This document shows, one piece after another, positions 13,388 to 63,616 of a stretch of DNA of 64,000 nt. A program made the position numbers and the translations under genes. Below the pieces are notes generated by a model, which saw nothing but the letters and a program-made list of their open reading frames with translations, did not search any database and was not told the origin of the DNA. The stretch comes from Sipunculus nudus. Lineage: Eukaryota > Annelida > Sipuncula > Golfingiida > Sipunculidae. Every line of letters begins with the position of its first letter. Within the stretch, counting starts at the first letter, position 1. The stretch spans positions 55,815,250 to 55,879,249 of the forward strand of contig CM049318.1 of the NCBI GenBank assembly GCA_026874595.1. The letters run 5' to 3'.

Positions 13388-14232
13388 ATGGCAACCCCAA
13401 GAGCGCCGAAGCAATGGCAATTGACTAAAATGAAAAAGTCAATACTTTTGAGAACTGGTAACAAAACCAAACCTACATACTGTCTTTAGATAAGAACTTT
13501 GCACCGTTCTAAGGAGATGTCACGTGGCAAAAGAAAACAGCATCTGACCAAAAAAGAGGTTTCAGTGATGACGGTAATGCACCTGCCGACATTAGACTAA
13601 CCGCAGCATAGAAAACAGCCCATTTAGAGCTTATGCTGGGACAAATTGCAAATTACTGCACTGTAATTTCACGAAACTCCACCATTAAAGGACCAACCTC
13701 TCTCAAAGGCATTTGGTACTTAATCAGACAACATAACGGGTTCCAGTCTACAGACTCTTATTTCCTTGATCTGGTCAAATGTAAGGTTATCACCTGACGA
13801 ACGCCCTGAGGACTAGTATCAACGTCTCATGGCATTCTTCGAGGAAAATCTCATGACAACTTATTGTTGCCTCACCCACCATGGAGCCAGTGTCTCCGAA
13901 GATAAGGATTTAACCCCAACACTGGAGAATACTGAAGCTGAATTATGGCAGCAACTCATCCGTGCTGGTTTGCCTCGCTTAGTTAGAACAGAAATATGCG
14001 TCTGAGCTCAGAAATAAGTCATTGGCATCTCTCGAACCCAATATATCTCAAGCATTGTCTTCCCTCCTAGACGGGTTACGCACTATTCAGGATACCAGAG
14101 TCATGGGCACGGCTACATCGAATGCCCACACACACAGATTCCTGCCAAACAACAGCTCACGCCCTGCATTCGTGAAGCGAAAGTCATGTGTACTGTGCAA
14201 AACTGCAAACCAACCTTTTACATCTCACGTGA
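13388..14232 (+). pseudogene. Decayed gag of an LTR retrotransposon
   Basis: Starts MATPRAPKQWQLTK and continues in shifted frames through FENWKQNQTYILSLDKNFAP, LELMLGQIANYC, ISRNSTIKGPTSLKGIW and QHNGFQSTDSYFLDL. These look to me like capsid-type gag segments of Ty3/Gypsy-like elements of marine invertebrates. The 3' part (frame from 14022) has NISQALSSLLDGLRT and a zinc-knuckle-like CVLCKTANQPFTSH. At least three frameshifts or stops make it a pseudogene. No protease, RT or integrase follows, because the satellite at 14233 begins immediately. Confidence 0.7.
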
Positions 14233-16125
14233 TACGGGTAACCCTAACCCTTCAGGCATGGAAAACTCCAGTAAGTGTTTCTCAATTTTAATATTAATAT
14301 TCGTATATCCATGATACGGGTAACCGTAAGCCTTCGGACATGAAATACTCCAATAATTGTTTGTCACTATTAATATGTGCTAAATCTGGGATACACGTTA
14401 CCCCAACCCTACCTACAGGAAATACTCCATTTAGTGTTTGTCACTGTTAAAATGCTCTATATCTGGTATACAGGTCACCCTAACCCTTTGGGCATGAAAT
14501 ACTCCAGTAAGTGTTTGTTACTTTGAATATTTGGTATATCTGGGATACAGGTTACCCTTCAGGTGTGAAAAACTCCAGTATGTATTTGTCACTATTAATA
14601 TGTGACCCTAACCCGATGGGCATGAAATTTGTCGTGTTCATCACTATTATATAAGGTATATCCAAAAACAGGTTACCCTAACCCTTCGGGCATGAAATAA
14701 TCCAGTAAGTGTTTGTCACTCTTAATATATGCTACATATGTGATACAGGTTACCCTAACCCTTCAGGCATGAATACTCCAGTAAGTGTTTGTCACTAATA
14801 TTAATATATGCTATAGTCAGGATATGGGTTACCTATCCATTCGGTCATAAAATATTCCAGTAAGTATTTGTCCCTTTTAATATTTGGTATATCTGGTATA
14901 CGGATTACCCTAACCCTTCGGGCATGAAATCCTCCCGTAAATTTTTGTCAGTATTAATGTTTGGTATATTGGAGGTACGGGTTACCCCCTGGGGCATGGA
15001 ATACTCCAGTAAGTGTTTGTCACTCTTAATATATACTATATCTGTGATACGGGTTACCCTAACCCTTCAGGAATGGAAAACTCCAGTAAGTGTTTCTCAC
15101 TATTAATATTAATATTCGTATATCCATGATACGGGTTACCGTAAGCCTTCGGACATGAAATACTCCAATAATTGTTTGTCTCTATTAATATGTGCTAAAT
15201 CTGGGATACGGGTTACCCTAACCCTACCTACAGGAAATAGTCAAGTTAGTGTTTGTCACTGTTAAAATCTGCTATATCTGGTATACAGGTTACCCTAACC
15301 CTTTGGGCATGAAATACTCCAGTAAGTGTTTGTAACTTTGAATATTTGGTATATCTGGGATACGGGTTACCCTTCAGGTGTGAAAAACTCCAGTATGTAT
15401 TTGTCACTATTAATATGTGCTATATCTGGTATACGAGTTACCCGAACCCTTCGGGCATGAAATAACCAGTAAGTGTTAGTCACTAATAAATATATCATAA
15501 ATGCATGATACGGGTTACCGTAAATCTTTGGACATGAAAACTCCAGATTTTGTTTGTCACTATATACATGTGCTAAATCTGGGATACGAGATACCCAAAC
15601 CCGATGGGCATGAAATCTGTCGTGTTTGTAACTATTAATATAAGGTATATCCAAAAAACTGGTTACCCTAACCCTTCGGGCATGAAAATCTCAAGTAAGT
15701 GTTAGTAACTATATAAACCTTTCAGTCATGAAATGCTCAAGTAAGCATTTGACACTAGTAATATGTATATATATATGGTATTTCCGTGATAGAGGTTACC
15801 CTATAAAATATGGTATTTCCTGGATAAGAATGACCCTAAGCCTTCGGACATGAAGTATAAATATTCATGTAAGTATTTGTCACTATTCAGTTAATATGTG
15901 CTATATCTGGGATACGAGATACCCTTACTGTAGGGGCATGAAAAACTATGGTAAGTCTTTGTCACTATTAATATTTGGTATATCAAAGATACAGGTTACC
16001 CTAACCCTTCAGGCATGAATCACTCCAGTAAGTGTTTTTCACTCTTAATATATGCTATATACGTGATACGGGTTACCCTAAACCTTCGGGCATGAAAACT
16101 CCAGTAAGTGTTTGTCACTATTAAT
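14233..16125. repeat. Satellite 1: about 75-bp tandem repeat with telomere-like core
   Basis: Roughly 25 diverged units follow one another. Each has a core GATACGGGTTACCCTAACCC, then CTTCGGGCATGAAATACTCC, AGTAAGTGTTTGTCAC and TATTAATATNTGGTATATCTGG-like parts. The unit length varies around 70-80 bp. The TTACCCTAACCC core resembles two degenerate copies of the animal telomere repeat (TTAGGG on the other strand). Short reading frames inside it are repeat artefacts. Confidence 0.9.
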
Positions 16126-16139
16126 ACGTCACCGCCATA

Positions 16140-17905
16140 GCACAGAATGTCCCAAGCAAATTATAAGGAGATCGTATTCAGGGTGTGTCACAAGATTGTC
16201 ACTGTCACAAACATGTCGCAAACATGGCACAGACTTTCCCAAGCAAATTTACAAGCAAGTATAAAGGGTGTGGGTCACAAGATTGTCACTGTCACAAGAT
16301 TGTCACAAACATAGCATAGACTTTCCCAAGCAAATTTACAAGCAAGTATAAAGGGTGTGTGTCACAAGTTTGTCACTGTCACAAGATTGTCACAAACATG
16401 GCATAGACTTTCCCAAGCAAATTTACAAGCAAGTATAAACGGTGTGTGTCACAAGATTGTCACTGTCACAAGATTGTCACAAACATGGCATAGACTTTCC
16501 CAAGCAAATTTACCAGCAAGCATAAAGGGAGTGTGTGACAAGATTGTCACAAGATTGTCACAAACATGGCATAGACTTTCCCAAGCAAATTTACAAGCAA
16601 GTATAAGGGGTGTGTCGAAAAAGGTTGTCACTGTCACAAACATGTCGCAAACATGGCACAGACTTTCCCAAGCAAATTTACAAGCAAGTATAAAGTGTGT
16701 GTGTCACAAGATTGTCACTGTCACAAGATTGTCACAAACGTGGCATAGACTTTCCCAAGCAAATTTACAAGCAAGTATAAACGGTGTGTGTCACAAGATT
16801 GTCAGTGTCACAAGATTGTCACAAACATGGCATAGACTTTCCCAAGCAAATTTACCAGCAAGCATAAAGGGAGTGTGTCACAAGATTGTCACAAGATTGT
16901 CACAAACATAGCATAGACTTTCCCAAGCAAATTTACAAGCAAGTATAAACGGTGTGTGTCACAAGATTGTCAGTGTCACAAGATTGTCACAAACATGGCA
17001 TAGACTTTCCCAAGCAAATTTACCAGCAAGCATAAAGGGAATGTGTCACAAGATTGTCACAAGATTGTCACTGTCACAAGATTGTCACAAACATGGCACA
17101 GAATTTCCTAAGCAAATTTACAAGCAAGTATAAAGGGTGTGTGTCACAAGATAGTCACTGTCACAAGATTGTCACAAACATGGCACAGACTTTCCCAAGC
17201 AATATACAAGCAAGTATAAAGGGAGTGTGTCACAAGATTGTCACAAACATGGCATATACCTTCCCAAGCAAATTTACAAGCAAGTACAAACGGTGTGTGT
17301 CACAAGATTGTCAGTGTCACAAGATTGTCACAAACATGGCATAGACTTTCCCAAGCAAATTTACCAGCAAGCATAAAGGGAGTGTGTCACAAGATTGTCA
17401 CAAGATTGTCACAAACATGGCATAGACTTTCCCAAGCAAATTTATAAGCAGGTATAAAGGGTGTGTGTCACAAGATTATCACTGTCACAAGATTGTCACA
17501 AACATTGCATAGACTTTCCCAATCAAATTTACAAGCAAGTATAAAGGGTGTGTGTCACAAGATTGTCACTGTCACAAGATTGTCGCAAACATGGCACAGA
17601 CTTTCCCGAGCAAATTTACAAGCAAGTTAAAAAAAGGTTGTGTGTCACAAGATTGTCACTGTCACAAGATTGTCACAAACATGGCATTGACTTTCCCAAG
17701 CAAATTTACAAGCAAGCATAAAGGGAGTGTGTCACAAGATTTTCACAAGATTTACACAAGCATGGCATAGACTTTCCGAAGCAAATTTACAAGCAAGTAT
17801 AAGGGGTGTGTGTCAGAAGATTGTCACTGTCACAAGATTGTCACAGACATGGCACATACTGTCTCAAGTAAATTTATAAGCAAGTATAAAGGGTGTGTGT
17901 CAGAC
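16140..17905. repeat. Satellite 2: about 87-bp tandem repeat with higher-order pattern
   Basis: About 20 units of the type CACAAGATTGTCACTGT + CACAAGATTGTCACAAA + CATGGCATAGACTTTCCCAA + GCAAATTTACAAGCAAGTAT + AAAGGGTGTGTGT. Some units differ by gain or loss of a GTCACTGTCACAAGATT block (about 17-18 bp). Specific unit variants (AAACGG start followed by an ACCAGCAAGCATAAAGGGAG unit) recur at about 16436, 16777, 16945 and 17286, a higher-order arrangement. Full units are 87 bp, a multiple of three, which makes spurious long frames. Confidence 0.92.
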
Positions 17906-26780: not shown

Positions 26781-27110
26781 TTTGCCATTTTCTAATAGGT
26801 CTTTTACTGGTGCACTTGTGTTGTTAATGGTGTGTTTTCAGACAAGCACACTTCAGTTCCGCTTCACAGTATACATTTAAAGTCAAATTAAATTTCTGGG
26901 AATATTACTGTGGGCATAAGAACTACTTTACCTTTTAAGGGAATTCAGTTGCTGCTAGGCAATGATGTTGCAGGTGACAAAGTACAGCTTGTACCAATAG
27001 TGACAGAAAAGCCGTCACTTGATCAGGACACTGATCCTGAAAGTCAGGAAATTCCTGGTTTGTATCCTCCATGTGCTGTAACTAGATTTATGCCCAAGAA
27101 AAACACATGA
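26780..27110 (+). pseudogene. Retropepsin-like protease remnant
   Basis: Segments NGVFSDKHTSVPLHSIHLKS and FKGIQLLLGNDVAGDKVQLV match the second half of retrotransposon proteases (ILLGND-type helix end). The catalytic D-S/T-G was not found in frame, and a stop interrupts the segment near 26889. Confidence 0.6.
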
Positions 27111-27119
27111 GGATAATGG

Positions 27120-28210
27120 TCCAGATAATAACACTCTGGGAGTCACTAGTGACTCGTCTAACGATTCGCCCGTACAGGATGCATTATTTTCAAGGTCAGA
27201 ACTTATCGCAGAACAGCATAAGGACCCTGATATTTCATGTTTGTTTCCCAGGGCAGTTTCTAAGGATGAACTGTCAAAGAACCCAGTTTGTTTCTATGTT
27301 AAAAATGGAGTGCTTATGCGTAAATGGCGACCACCTGATGTATGCGCTGATGATAAGTGGGCCATCAAACATCAAATAGTAGTCCCCAAAAGCTACCGCA
27401 ATGAAATTTTAAGCATGGCACATGAGGCTCCTTTGTCTGGCCATTTAGGTATAAATAAAACTTATCAGAAAGTTAGTAGACACTTTTATTGGCCGAACCT
27501 CATCACAGATGTTGTACAATATTGTAAATCAGGCCATACATGCCAGATGGTAGGCAAGCCCAATCAGAATCCTCCTAAAGCCCCACTTAGGCCTATACGT
27601 GCTTTCCACCAACCATTAAGTAGGTTTATTGTTGATTGTGTTGGACCACTGCCCAAAACAAAATCTGGTCATGAATACTTGCTGACAATTATGTGCGCAT
27701 CTACCAGGTTCCCTGAGGCAAAACCATCGCGCAAAATTATTGCCAAAGGTGTTGTCAAGGCTCTGACTAAGTTTTTTACAATTTTTGGATTACCAAAATC
27801 CGTCCAGTTTGACCAAGGGTATAATTTTATGTCTGGCTTATTCCAGCAAGTTATGCTTGAGCTTGGTATAAAACAGTACAGCTCTTCGCCATACCATCCT
27901 GAAAGTCAGGGCGCCCTCGAGCGTTTTCACCAGACATTAAAAAAAAACACAATTAGGACTTATTGTTATGACACACAGAAAGACTGGGATGCAGGAATCC
28001 ACCTATTGCTGTTTGCTGTCAGAGAATCATTTCAAGAGTTTCAGTCCCTTTGAACTAGTTTTCGAACATTCAGTTCGAGGTCCATTAAAACTGCTTAAAG
28101 GAAAACTCTTATGTGAAAATCCTGATTCTCTTAGTTTATTTCAGTATATATCAGCCTTTCGCACTAAATACACAATGCTTGTGAGATTGCAAAGTCTATT
28201 CTAAAATCTG
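27120..28210 (+). pseudogene. Integrase (zinc-binding and catalytic core) remnant
   Basis: The frame at 27241-28053 has an HHCC-type zinc finger (H-x-GHLGINKTYQKVSRHFYWP, C-x2-H-TC). The rve core has catalytic Asp in IVDCVGPLP and in VQFDQGYNF, and Glu in PESQGALERFHQTLK. A frameshift near 28050 moves on to the segment SPFELVFEHSVRGPLKLLKG. Typical Ty3/Gypsy integrase, here positioned before RT. Confidence 0.88.
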
Positions 28211-39248: not shown

Positions 39249-41986
39249 TCAACCCATCTCTCCTTCATCCTTGTCATTTTCCCTCAAGGGAAACAACCTC
39301 TTTATCTCAGGCATACTTTCCATTGTGTATCCATGTTTCTTTTTGTAATGGCTTTGAAGACTTTGTTTGGTTGTAAATCCGCAAGAACATTCCGTACATT
39401 TAAATGGTTTCCTCCCAGAATGTGTTAACATATGCACATCTAAATTTGTCTTATCAACAAAAGGTTTACCACAGCGGTCACAGGTAAACGAGTATGTTTT
39501 AGTGTGATAATTCAAATGCCTCCTTAATGCCGGTCCTGAACGGAAAACTTTGGGGCATTCAGGGCAATGAAACTTTGGACGGTCGTGAACTTTTCTCTTG
39601 TGGGCATTTACCCTAATTTTGGTTGGAAAGGGTTTCCCACACTGATCACAAAGATAGGTATCCAGGCATAGAGCCGCATGCTGAGCTCTTCTGTGTTGTC
39701 CAAGTGAAATGATAGTGGTCACCTTTTTCCCACATATATCACATTTGTAAACTTTACAACCAAATTCCTGTCGGTGTTCCCGTGCTTGTTTCCTGGTACA
39801 TATAAGTAATCCGCAGGTAGCACAATTTACAGTTTTGAAGCGGAAATTCTTGGTATGAAACACCAGAAGATGCCTACACAAATCTAACCTGCAATTGTAC
39901 TCGATTTTACATCGATCACAAGAAAGATGCAGGAGTGATTCATCATGGCTGACCTGAAAGGCCCTTTCATTGTGTCTGAAGATCTTGCTGTAGGGCATGA
40001 TAGTCAGTTCTTGGTCTGGTGCTATATCATTACATGCAACCAAATAAATGGTATCTTCTTTATAAACCTGAAACATATTGCCATTTGTATTACTACCTCT
40101 GACAAAGTGAAACCAGTTACTTCGTGTGAGATCGCTGGTGTCTACAACTGTGGCTGTCCTGCTCTCCAAATCAAAATAAGGCCAATAGTACTCCTCATTG
40201 CAGGCTGTACAATCAAGCTCCTCATATGGTAAAGTACATCCTACAACTGGCCCAAACTGAGTGCCTTTACGGATGAGTTTGTTTGTAACAACCAAGGTTT
40301 TTAAATTTCCATCTACATCTGATGACACATATTTAAGACCCTTTGGCAGATCAGGAAGGCTCTCTTCCTCAGAATGTCTTTTCAGTGGAGGGTCTGGATT
40401 GGCAATTACATGAGGTGGATTGCAAATGAAACATAAATTTTCATGCATTGGTTGTTCATGAACATAATAACATTTCGAACACCTTCCCCTTTCTGCTTTC
40501 ACTCTTTTCACTTTTTTTAGTTCAAAGTCTTCATCACTTTCACCAGATGAATAAGAAATAATGCTGGAGTCAGAATTTCCATATGGATTGTAGTCACGAT
40601 CTCCATGCCTTGCCTGCTTTGTCCTGATTTTAGCTGCATCAGTTGTTGTAACATCTTCCCCAAAAATAGTTTTAGATTTCTTACGGACACGTTTAGTAGC
40701 TACTCTGGCTGCCCTTCTTTGTGGTAAGCCCCCAGGTCTTTCTTTCAATAACACCTCTTCCTCCTCATCTGTGCTATCAGAGAAATCTGGCTCATATGGT
40801 GGGGAGTCAGACACCTGGTCTTCACTGACCAAATCGTGAATTTCCTTTTCCTCTGCTGCCATATAGTCATACATAAGGTTTTGCTTATCTTGTTGCATAA
40901 CCACTGTTTCTCCAACTTCACTTGCAGTATCAGTTGAAGAGATCACTTTCTCTTCATAACTCTCAACTTTGACATATGCACGTATATCAGCAAGATCTGT
41001 TTGTTCATTTTCTTCAGATAATTCTTGTGCTGCTTTCTTGTGATATCTAATGTATTCCTCATCCTGTGGCATAAAACCTATTTCTCCAACTTCACTTGCA
41101 GTATCAGTTTCAGTATCAGAGATCACATTCGCTTCGGTCCCAATAACTGGTCCCGATCCACTAATATCCTTCCTATTTGAAGTGATGCTGCTTGACACAC
41201 GACCAAAGTTACTTTCTAATCTTTCAAGAGAATCCATACCTTTCCCATGGCTTTTTTTACTGTTTCCAGAGGGAAGTTCCCCTTCTGTGGCAGTTCTCAT
41301 CTGGATAATAAAATGGTCATTTGAATGATAGCCAGTAATATTACTTCCCAGTGGTGGACTGAGTGGTAAGGATGTATCATATTTTCTCGATCTCTTATCA
41401 TATGTAGAAGTAACATTTGACGAAGTATAGTTGTGAACTGACGTGACTTTCTCACTTGCTAGCATTGGGTTAAATGGTCTGGGAATAATGGCTGGTTCAG
41501 GCACACATTGTGTTCTGTTTAAATTTGAATTATTTAGCTGTATGTCATCTTGATGACTCTCATCAAATGCAGTTGTAGATACTGCAAATGTCCTGATTAC
41601 ATGATTTTCACAGTCATACTGTACATCTGTTTGAGATTCTTGTATAAACAGTTGAAGACTAAATGCATAAAACACCTGAATGCCACACTTGCTTGTATGT
41701 AAGAGTTTCATAAATTTCAAACACCTGTGTATCGGAAGTGTCATATCACAGATATACACAGCAGTGATTGTTTTACAGTCAAAACAGTCCTTGCCATTGT
41801 TACTGCCAGGTAAAAGAGAACTCATGAGGTGCAATGAGACATTCTGTGCCAATGACTGATGAAGATGGAACTTTATATTTGTGAGACGAGAATACTTCTT
41901 TTCCTGTTGCACAGAAACGGGTTTAAACAGCTGGGCGGGGTAGAGAGCATCAGGCACCAGGTCCATCCCCAAAGCTGTCATGGCCC
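39249..41986 (-). CDS. PRDM-type PR/SET and C2H2 zinc-finger protein, main coding exon
   Basis: One exon of about 910 codons after its CTCTTTCAG acceptor (41989-41987), entered in phase 1. The N-terminal half is acidic and Ser/Thr-rich with a basic RRAARVATKRVRKKSK patch (possible nuclear localisation). A Cys-rich knuckle CSKC...CFIC lies at about 40440-40490. A PR/SET-like domain follows at about 39985-40345: KGTQFGPVVG, NWFHFVRGSN and ACNDIAPDQELTIMPYSKIF, the usual PR landmarks. Seven zinc fingers end the protein (about 39290-39940). The second ends in Cys (C2HC) and the rest are C2H2. PRDM proteins are nuclear, DNA-binding regulators. A knuckle-PR-zinc finger order is like PRDM4/10/15, but I cannot name the orthologue. 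Stop TGA at 39249-39251. Confidence 0.88.
40907..41109 (-). repeat. Internal 58-codon duplication in the PRDM-type gene
   Basis: The same 29 bases occur at 40907-40935 and 41081-41109, 174 bp apart (58 codons, in frame). The protein has TASEVGEIGFMPQDEEYIRY and TASEVGETVVMQQDKQNLMY, marking a duplicated acidic segment. Confidence 0.8.
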
Positions 41987-42965
41987 CTGAAAGAGCAAAG
42001 ATGTACAAGTAGATCTTCAACAATTTACATTTGACAAGAATAAAAAATTCCACAAGTACATCTGGGAAACCACAAGCCTGCATCTGTTTGAGTGTTTCAG
42101 AAAATGAAGACTATATAGTAAATACTGTGCTATTAAATATCAGTGGTAAATACAGAAATAAGAGGGACATGATAAATACTGTTCTGGTATAAAGAATAGT
42201 GGTAAATACAGGTATAAGAAAGATAAGGTAAATACTCTACCATTACATCCAATTGTAAATATAGGAAGATGATATAGTTAATACTGTACCAGTCAATATC
42301 AGTGAAACTTACACTGAGTGACAACTTCCCAAATTTGCAGATAAGTGGATAATACCAACAACAGTATTATAAACCAGTAATAGTGGTGTTCACAAAAATA
42401 CCATTATGATCATGTACAAGGTAAGAATAATTAAAGAAAGGACACCACTAAGCAAAACATCCCCTCATAACAGGTGCATAATGAGATAGGATGTATTAAA
42501 CTATACATCTGGGCAGTTTGAAAATCAGTAAGACAGCAGTGTGACATTGGTCTTGGACCTTAAAATCAATAGTAATCTTCTTCCTCCATTGAAAGGTGAC
42601 CCAAATGTGAAAGATGGTAGATTTTGGGAGAAAACTTCGATTAAAAATACATCCACAAATTTTAAAAGAAATTGGTTCTGTGAACTTCTGACCTCAAAAT
42701 CAATAGGGTTCTCCTCTTATAGATAAGTGAGTTATATGACGTGTTGAAAGGTTCTGCTTAAGATACATCCACAAACATTTAAAGAAATAAGTCTGGTGAT
42801 CCTGAACCTCTGACCTAAACATCAATAGGGCTCTTCCCGTTGGTTGTTGGAAGTTTTTTGGAAGATGGAGGGTTTATATCCTATTGTGTGGAAGTTGCAA
42901 GGGGAAAATAAAAGACAAACTGCACCAATATTAAATCAGACATTTTCATTTAATCTATTAAGGCC

Positions 42966-61467: not shown

Positions 61468-61889
61468 GTAAAATTAAGTCACTAACACAGTATACAGATA
61501 GTCAAGTCCACAGGATTCTGCCAATTCCTGCTACCAAAATTAGGCGCCTACTACCTGTGTATGATAACATAATGATATATATTATAACCTTGGGTAGTTA
61601 CAATACATTTAATGATAATACAATATGTGTTGTGATATATGTGCCACATGATAAAGTACATATTCAGATTCAAAAGATGTGTGTTACATAATAGTTGAAT
61701 TCCAAATACATTTTCATTTCCAAACCAGATATCTGTTTCAGGAACAAATGATAAGGCCAAAATAAAAAAAAAAGTATGGTTCTCAGGCACTGCCTGCATT
61801 AATTTAGACCCCTGGCATGAAGAATTTTGATTTTGATTTTCATCTTTAAAGAAGGTAAAATAATACAATTTTGATAAGATTTCCTTTGT

Positions 61890-62060
61890 TATGTTGCTGT
61901 TTTACCTGTTTAGCAAAAAAAAATTCTGTTATTATCATACTTTTCCCTGATCATATGACACTTTTATTGAAACATAAAAAAAATCGACCCCTTGCACCTA
62001 TTTTTCTGAAAAAAAGTGCCTCAGAACAATCCCTTTTTTTACTTAAACCCATAACTTTTG
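61890..62060 (+). repeat. Dispersed repeat R3, copy 2 (in ZSWIM2 intron)
   Basis: Matches the minus strand of 53800-54040. The frame running through it is not conserved as protein. Confidence 0.65.
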
Positions 62061-62311
62061 AAGTATTTCAAAAATTCCCTCATTTGGCTAGATTTTCTGA
62101 GTTTAAACACATTGCATATTTATTTTCAGATCTGAAGATCAATATATCATAGACTTAAAGTTAAAGCCCCTAGAGCTAAAGTAACTGATGAAAATTAGGT
62201 AGAGATGCAACAAAAGCTTGGCAATTAGATGCAGTTAATTCCTAGCAAGATCCAAAGGTAAACAATTAATCCATCTTTGAACAGACAGTTGAGATTTTTT
62301 TAAATTTTCAG

Positions 62312-63498
62312 GTGTACCTGGGTGACCCTCACACCTGTACATGTTGTAAAATGTTTCAGGTGTACCTGGTGACCCTTACACACATACATATTGTTAAATG
62401 TTTCAGATGTACCTGGGTGACCCTCACACATGTACATATTGTTAAATGTTTCAGGTATACCTGGGTGACCCTCACACCTGTACATGTTGTAAAATTTTTC
62501 AGGTGTACCTGGTGACCCTTACACACATACATATTGTTAAATGTTTCAGATGTACTTGGGTGACCCTCACACATGTACATATTGTTAAATGTTTCAGGTG
62601 TACCTGGGTGACCCTCACACTTGTACATGTTGTTAAATGTTTCAGGTGTACCTGGGTGACCCTCACACATGTACATGTTGTTTAATGTTTCAGGTGTACC
62701 TGGGTGACCCTCCCACATGTTCATGTTGTTAAATTTTCAGGTGTACCTGGGTGACCCTCACACCTGTACATGTTGTAAAATGTTTCAGGTGCACCTGGTG
62801 ACCCTTACAAACATACATATTGTTAAATGTTTCAGATGTACTTGGATGACCCTCACACATGTACATATTGTTAAATGTTTCAGGTGTAACTGGGTGACCC
62901 TCACACTTGTACATGTTGTTAAATGTTTCAGGTGTACCTGGGTGACCCTCACACATGTTCATGTTGTTTAATGTTTCAGGTGTACCTGGTGACCCTCCCA
63001 CATGTTCATGTTGTTAAATGTTTCAGGTGTACCTGGGTGACCCTCACACATGTTCATGTTGTTAAATGTTTCAGGTGTACCTGGGTGACCCTCACACTTG
63101 TACATGTTGTTAAATGTTTCAGGTGTACCTGGGTGACCCTCACACTTGTACATGTTGTTTAATGTTTCAGGTGTACCTGAGTGACCCTCACACGTTCATG
63201 TTGTTAAATGTTTCAGGTGTACCTGGGTGACCCTCACACATGTTCATGTTGTTAAATGTTTCAGGTGTACCTGGGTGACCCTCACACATGTTGTTAAATG
63301 TTTCAGGTGTACCTGGGTGACCCTCACACATGTACATGTTGTTTAATGTTTCAGGTGTACCTGGGTGACCCTCACACATGTTCATGTTGTTAAATGTTTC
63401 AGGTGTACCTGGGTGACCCTCACACATGTACATGTTGTTTAATGTTTCAGGTGTACCTGGGTGACCCTCACACATGTACATGTTGTTTAATGTTTCAG
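62312..63498 (+). repeat. 48-bp minisatellite made of ZSWIM2 intron end plus exon start
   Basis: Twenty-five tandem units start at 62312, 62360, 62407, 62455, 62503, 62550 and so on to 63403 and 63451. Most steps are 48 bases, some 46-47 and one 42. Each unit begins with the first 30 or so bases of the SWIM exon (GTGTACCTGGGTGACCCTCA, then CAC-TGTACATG) and ends with an intron-end sequence (TTGTTAAATGTTTCAG). Every junction is therefore a copy of the true 3' splice site at 63498/63499. Units with TTTAATG stay open, units with TTAAATG carry a stop, and units lacking a G (CTGGTGACC) shift frame. Confidence 0.92.
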
Positions 63499-63616
63499 GT
63501 GTACCTGGGTGACCCTCACACTTGTACATGTTCCGTGTACAGAAAGGAGAAGGACCTCTGTAAACACATCTGCTGGGTCATACTGAAAAAGTTCCGGGTG
63601 CCCCGGACAAATCCAG
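63499..63616 (+). CDS. ZSWIM2: ZSWIM2 second coding exon (SWIM zinc finger)
   Basis: After the last TGTTTCAG of the array the exon reads VYLGDPHTCTCSVYRKEKD, then LCKHICWVILKKFRVPRTNP, and ends at CCAG|GTCAGC (phase 1). C-x-C...C-x-H is the SWIM zinc-finger pattern, and LCKHICWVLLKKF is characteristic of ZSWIM2. It enters in phase 0, joining 61467 in frame. It is the only array copy that continues into the full exon. Confidence 0.93.

Follow-up and report, generated by a model that had tools for sequence, protein, structure and literature searches.

Tandem copies of a 3′ splice site ahead of the SWIM exon in a ZSWIM2-type gene of Sipunculus nudus

How the spliceosome settles on one 3′ splice site when several similar ones are present has long been asked, mostly with built minigenes that carry few sites. 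The locus described here raises the question in a natural setting: 26 copies of an acceptor stand in tandem ahead of one exon of a Sipunculus nudus gene, and we asked what each of them would give and how the gene might live with them. Positions refer to the window, the 64,000-nucleotide stretch of DNA that was analysed, unless a contig or locus is named; a slash within a motif marks a splice junction. The coordinates of the features are collected in Table 1.

The gene model, which covers the window and 50 kb downstream, has 10 exons and is open over 654 aa; its 3′ end is incomplete, and the frame of exon 6 is kept by a second AG four bases on. The predicted protein gave matches to SWIM (residues 51-81), ZZ (230-272) and RING (310-352), and of its two zf-RING_2 stretches the other one was placed by eye at about residues 149-200. 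With the first RING so placed, the domains follow the order SWIM, RING, ZZ, RING, which we take to be the ZSWIM2 architecture and on which the name of the gene is based. The gene is single copy in the assembly, matches outside the locus having E values of 0.03 or worse. The 10 open exons and the single copy ruled out a pseudogene.

Table 1. Positions of the gene parts, the acceptor array and elements within the array
Feature	Positions	Strand	Basis
Coding exon 1 of the ZSWIM2-type gene, from ATG, 50 codons, ending in phase 0, donor AAG/GTAAAA	61318..61467	+	Open frame and donor
Intron 1 with the entire decoy array, if the last acceptor is used	61468..63498	+	Gene model
Intron sequence present once, ahead of decoy 1; T-rich tract longer than in the units, tail TTAAATTTTCAG	62272..62311	+	Comparison of unit sequences
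25 decoy units, each an exon copy followed by an intron copy, TTTCAG at the end	62312..63498	+	TRF, anchors, shuffles
Units 1-3, higher-order trimer, repeated as 4-6 and 10-12	62312..62454	+	Difference matrix
Units 24 and 25, the only decoys keeping the frame through the SWIM exon	63403..63498	+	Frame test
Branch-point-like CTCAC of unit 25, A at 63470, 29 nt before exon 2; from the exon-derived part of the preceding unit	63467..63471	+	Branch-point consensus
Exon 2, true SWIM exon (VYLGDPHTCTCSVYRKEKDLCKHICWVILKKFRVPRTNP), donor CAG/GTCAGC	63499..63616	+	Pfam SWIM PF04434, E 2.1e-7

TRF, run on the 64-kb window, placed the array at 62300-63532, with a period of 48, 26.0 copies and 90% matches. 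The array holds 26 exact TTTCAG acceptors, with junctions from 62311/62312 (first) to 63498/63499 (last), and its last copy is continuous with exon 2. The 25 intervals measure 48 nt in 18 cases, 47 nt in five (units 2, 5, 9, 11, and 15), 46 nt in one (unit 19) and 42 nt in one (unit 21). A 16-mer of the junction, TTTCAGGTGTACCTGG, searched with up to three mismatches, occurs 26 times in the window, each time inside the array (26/26). In 100 shuffles its mean count was 0.46 and its maximum 4, and 0/100 reached 26, which ruled out a chance repeat. Judged from the point where the last copy departs from the array, the repeated segment comprises 14 nt from the intron and 34 nt from the exon. The array DNA was found at one place only in the 1,426,538,692-base (1.43-Gb) assembly by a search that skips very common words, and a dispersed satellite was ruled out on that basis. 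A preliminary description of this DNA had recognised a minisatellite built from a single intron-exon border of a ZSWIM2-type gene, with 26 acceptors, 25 of them extra, and the real exon last. TRF, the anchors and the gene model bear this out, and copies at unrelated loci lacking the exon, which would have spoken against it, did not appear in the same assembly search. Its unit of about 18 intron and 30 exon bases was right in straddling the border and inexact in the two sizes.

The units are not a uniform series. A difference matrix revealed higher-order trimers, in which units 1-3 resemble units 4-6 and units 10-12: units 1 and 10 are identical, as are units 2 and 5, two differences separate 1 from 4 and 2 from 11, and units 3, 6, and 12 lie within two differences of one another. 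In addition, unit 9 ends in the same 12 bases as the single-copy flank before unit 1 (TTAAATTTTCAG). Repeated rounds of unequal exchange or slippage would be expected to leave such trimers and such an identity between unit 9 and the flank, and the trimers show past turnover.

The preliminary description knew of no published case of this kind, but such arrays have been described. Two papers report "mirage" minisatellites in the amphioxus genes Adh, BflGb6 and BflGb9 (globins), TnC and PGBD5, with RT-PCR suggesting that regular splicing is undisturbed and with concerted evolution of the units (PMC3087553, PMC3902484); the second deals with PGBD5 and mentions Adh and TnC. As reported there, amphioxus mirages consist of tandem units across an intron-exon boundary, many copies of which retain AG/GT, in expressed genes and on either the acceptor or the donor side. 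The ZSWIM2 array is alike in that its unit spans the intron-exon boundary, its copies carry splice signals and the host gene is intact. The dimensions differ: the two BflGb6 haplotypes are reported to have 6 and 3 units, each 150-160 bp long, and the Adh3 units to measure 10-72 bp, whereas there are 26 units of about 48 nt in ZSWIM2 and, as described below, 74 acceptors in MMS19. RNA and length differences were studied for the amphioxus mirages, whereas the ZSWIM2 array is known from the sequence of one assembly. Among the papers listed by a few searches of a limited library, judged by titles and abstract openings, none described an acceptor mirage outside cephalochordates.

Relatives are also found in human CBS (PMC2630376). 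There, c.844_845ins68 is a 68-bp duplication of the intron 7/exon 8 junction whose distal copy is strongly favoured (the paper says "splice donor," the title of the cited Romano paper 3′ splice site), and by its name the 31-bp VNTR c.1444_1467+7(16_21) lies over the end of an exon and the start of the following intron (PMC2630376). The 68-bp case resembles ours in its duplicated intron-exon junction and preferred distal copy; the CBS cases differ in that the junction has a single additional copy, or the VNTR is on the donor side, and neither is an acceptor array. Work on intron gain describes tandem duplication of AGGT segments (the Rogers model, Hellsten, potato RdRp and fission yeast, the latter with 24-bp AGGT repeats, several copies in one intron; PMC4974935). 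Tandem copies with AG and GT are common to both situations, whereas in ZSWIM2 an existing boundary has been multiplied within an existing intron: AG/GT copies are seen, and a new intron is not evident from the DNA. Human internal repeats can activate cryptic sites (PMC2812944).

Exon 1, which ends in phase 0, was joined in silico to each of the 26 acceptors. Only acceptors 24, 25, and 26 gave a frame open through the SWIM exon, and a stop was met in the 23/26 joins made with acceptors 1-23. Use of acceptors 24 and 25 would add 32 and 16 aa, respectively (VYLGDPHTCTCCLMFQ each), ahead of the SWIM finger, with the Pfam match retained. All array-borne acceptors (2-26) have a motif fitting the branch-point consensus yTnAy 15-45 nt upstream (25/25), and CTCAC or CTTAC, copied from the exon's own codons, lies 23-29 nt upstream in 23/25 of them. 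Each unit thus combines TTTCAG and a T-rich tract with a branch-point-like element and is by its sequence a complete 3′ splice site. The 20-mer at the true site is identical to those at acceptors 9, 15, 19, 23, and 25, and in a rough score built on splice-site base frequencies the true site (6.5) equals these same decoys, followed by decoy 1 (6.0) and, lower, the rest. A uniquely strong true acceptor was ruled out by these ties and by the low rank of the last acceptor in MMS19 (see below). By these predicted properties, the array is a set of similar acceptors that differ mainly in position.

We then searched the whole assembly for three TTTCAGG words spaced 30-60 nt. The pattern was matched 2355 + 2041 times and its reversed control 482 + 4451 times; across the assembly the raw counts, which are of matches and not of arrays, show no excess over the control. 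Ten neighbourhoods were examined from the first matches listed, a small, pattern-chosen sample that lies entirely in the initial part of contig C1. In 3/10 (L050, L051, and L052) there was an acceptor array with a final unit that enters an open exon followed by a donor, L051 also having a donor array. By eye, no mirage was seen in the other 7/10 neighbourhoods (L044-L049 and L053), nor in the third L051 array. When 29 arrays (one-strand count) were scanned mechanically on both strands, seven were flagged: those of ZSWIM2, MMS19 (L050), the AP5B1-like exon (L051) and L052, and three chance-like ones (L044, the other strand of L045, and a 41-nt array that lies beyond the window in intron 9). Two adjoining arrays at 14231-17902 of the window, with 77-nt and 87-nt units, follow a frame that resembles a retroelement by eye but gave no Pfam match. 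They were rejected as further mirages; the mechanical scan left them unflagged, and reading by eye covered 13900-16320.

The array at L050 consists of 44-nt units in 75.9 copies and ends in an MMS19 exon (PF14500, E 3.5e-13; PDB 6tc0, E 5.4e-10). Exon pieces flanking the array, selected and joined into 212 aa by eye, align with residues 62-283 of the MMS19 chain of PDB 6tc0 (E 3.4e-58), and the alignment is continuous through the junction. On these matches, the exon of this DNA-repair gene is a further acceptor mirage in the genome, which makes at least one beyond ZSWIM2. There are 74 TTTYAG acceptors, only the last of which, TTTTTTAG, is open in the exon's phase; by the score used for ZSWIM2 it ranks 71/74, 70 of the 73 others being higher. 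If protein is made from the gene, the last site must therefore win in spite of its low score, and MMS19 thus provides, by its predicted frames, the strongest support for use of the exon-proximal acceptor.

The exon evidence is weaker than that for MMS19 in the remaining cases, namely the AP5B1-like and L052 acceptor arrays and the L051 donor array. At L051, 58-nt units (8.8 copies) contain seven TTTYAG acceptors, only the last of which is open, and the next exon has a weak AP5B1_middle match (E 1.2e-4; 22.0 bits, below the cut-off of 24.5). The donor-side array, found by eye and without a control, occupies L051:5922-6397 with 33-nt units in 14.4 copies and starts from the presumed end of the AP5B1-like exon, CTACCATCACAG/GTAAGATCC (...CATCACAG/GTAAGATCC). 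At L052, 39-nt units (24.8 copies) precede a 71-aa exon defined by an open frame and the donor CAA/GTGAGT, with no family match above the cut-off and no structure match. Acceptors 31 and 33 of its 33 are open in one phase and acceptor 32 in another, so that openness is not confined to the last. A 59-nt array of 32.9 copies with an acceptor-like TTCACAG/GTGGGAG was also noted at L051:8432-10373; it enters another repeat, no exon was seen, and it is perhaps an orphaned mirage.

Taken together, the ZSWIM2 array is probably a mirage that arose by neutral minisatellite growth, is carried as intron, and is tolerated since the exon-proximal acceptor is used. A 48-nt segment across the 3′ splice site of intron 1 would have been duplicated in tandem, by slippage or unequal exchange, to create the array, which would be carried in the intron. 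Each decoy is predicted to be a complete 3′ splice site about as strong as the true one. Productive mRNA would come from the last acceptor, perhaps with slight use of 24 and 25, and use of the other 23 would lead to stops. The last site might be chosen through pairing of the acceptor with the downstream donor over a short exon (exon definition). We infer all four elements of this account: the origin by slippage or unequal exchange, neutrality, last-acceptor use, and exon definition. Three ideas had been offered in the preliminary description, and the one best supported is that the last acceptor wins, given the stops in 23/26 joins and the single in-frame acceptor out of 74 in MMS19; we infer the use itself from these frames. 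Against the account, the last ZSWIM2 acceptor is by score no stronger than decoys, the last L052 acceptor is not the sole open one, and the TTTCAGG triples are not above their reversed control. With acceptor 25, moreover, the exon would be extended by just 48 nt, and exon definition alone would thus be insufficient for a strict choice: donor-acceptor pairing would exclude far decoys, hardly the nearest ones (48 nt away in ZSWIM2, 44 nt in MMS19).

That gap would be filled, where the exon starts with GT, if a splice to a decoy at AG/GT regenerated a 5′ splice site and the transcript were spliced onward until the last acceptor, which could then win without greater strength. ZSWIM2 junctions read CAG/GT in 23/26 cases (CAG/AT in units 3, 6, and 12), 20 of which are CAG/GTGTAC and score 5.4 as donors, compared with 5.2-10.3 for the gene's own donors; those of MMS19 read AG/GT in 60/74, with a median donor-like score of 8.4 over all 74. 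Nevertheless, we consider such re-splicing distinctly unlikely. The donor-like scores are rough, GT is simply the first dinucleotide of the ZSWIM2 and MMS19 exons and varies like other columns (AT in 3/25 ZSWIM2 units), and AG/GT is found at 0/7 junctions of the AP5B1-like array in L051 and 0/33 in L052, which rules out re-splicing as a general rule. Recursive, or ratchet, splice sites of long introns have a T-rich tract and then AG/GT, as do most junctions of ZSWIM2 and MMS19 and none of L051 and L052. They differ from the present sites, which stand by the dozen in tandem, are made from the exon's own first bases, and are described here as sequence.

A regulatory function, the tuning by splice-site competition that had been suggested earlier, would have the 25 extra acceptors compete for U2AF/U2, with copy number setting ZSWIM2 levels via stop-containing mRNAs. 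Every array-borne acceptor does carry the branch-point-like element, T-rich tract and AG, and as 23/26 choices end in stops, any leakage would lower the amount of protein. TTTCAG is invariant among the units; however, so is TGACCCT, and 3/48 six-column windows lack a variable column in an alignment whose unit 9 gap was placed by hand. Selection on TTTCAG was therefore rejected, its conservation not being above that of other columns, and column variability and open-unit statistics from this one assembly gave no evidence of selection on the ZSWIM2 decoys. Arrays of the same kind occur in unrelated genes, as would sooner be expected of a mutational process than of a regulator specific to one gene, and published mirages are reported to splice normally (PMC3087553, PMC3902484). 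The suggestion is thus unsupported, and we regard tuning as very unlikely.

Variable columns make up 17/34 of the exon-derived part and 3/14 of the intron-derived part (Fisher p 0.11), and stops and frameshifts occur within the exon-derived part of the copies. Variation in the exon-derived part is thus no more restricted than in the intron part, with no sign of coding use. That acceptors 24-26, or 48-nt units spliced as cassettes, serve to place extra 16-aa segments before the SWIM finger is highly improbable: acceptors 24 and 25 are open, as are 9/25 units as single cassettes, and L052 likewise has more than one late open acceptor, but two open last units have a chance p of 0.12 given 9/25 open, and openness is confined to the last acceptor in both MMS19 and the AP5B1-like gene.

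The arrays suggest that junction minisatellites, known in lancelets, are also present in another animal with a larger genome, the assembly of 1.43 Gb being about three times the size of an amphioxus genome, about 0.5 Gb. The arrays form natural series of 26 (ZSWIM2) and 74 (MMS19) acceptors, those of ZSWIM2 of similar predicted strength, in which protein would be possible only from the last three or the last one, respectively, the last of MMS19 being among the weakest by a rough score. Position versus strength in 3′ splice-site choice could thus be addressed at both. A broader proposition, which we think unlikely, is that acceptor mirages recur in this animal, outside lancelets, and that its genes survive equal or stronger decoys by AG/GT re-splicing forward to the exon-proximal acceptor, which would make the arrays natural tests of a position-only rule for 3′ splice sites.

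Some further sequences were noted in the window and the assembly. The window contains, at 27082-28053, an integrase-type retrotransposon frame (Integrase_H2C2, rve), to which frames up to about 29838 appear related by eye, and at 39249-42110 on the minus strand a PRDM-type frame, open over 953 codons, in which a PR/SET domain and C2H2 fingers are encoded. Nine bacterial-type COX1 matches of near-equal score occur in contigs C60, C61, C62, C66, C72, C74, C75 and, at two places, C89. The three genes examined (L055-L057) encode 577-578 aa, are nearly identical and have 37-38% GC; they are 52-58% identical to the best 80 loci listed from prokaryote genomes, and the nine genes perhaps represent strains of an unfamiliar associated bacterium. 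A bacterial oxidase gene of 53.5% GC, cbb3 type by eye, at C123:9253-10542 (L058) on a 112-kb contig probably derives from a second bacterium. Finally, an animal-like COX1 fragment of 51 residues at C5:67852325-67852477 (L139), interrupted by a TGA and lying on a 93-Mb contig, is likely a mitochondrial insertion.
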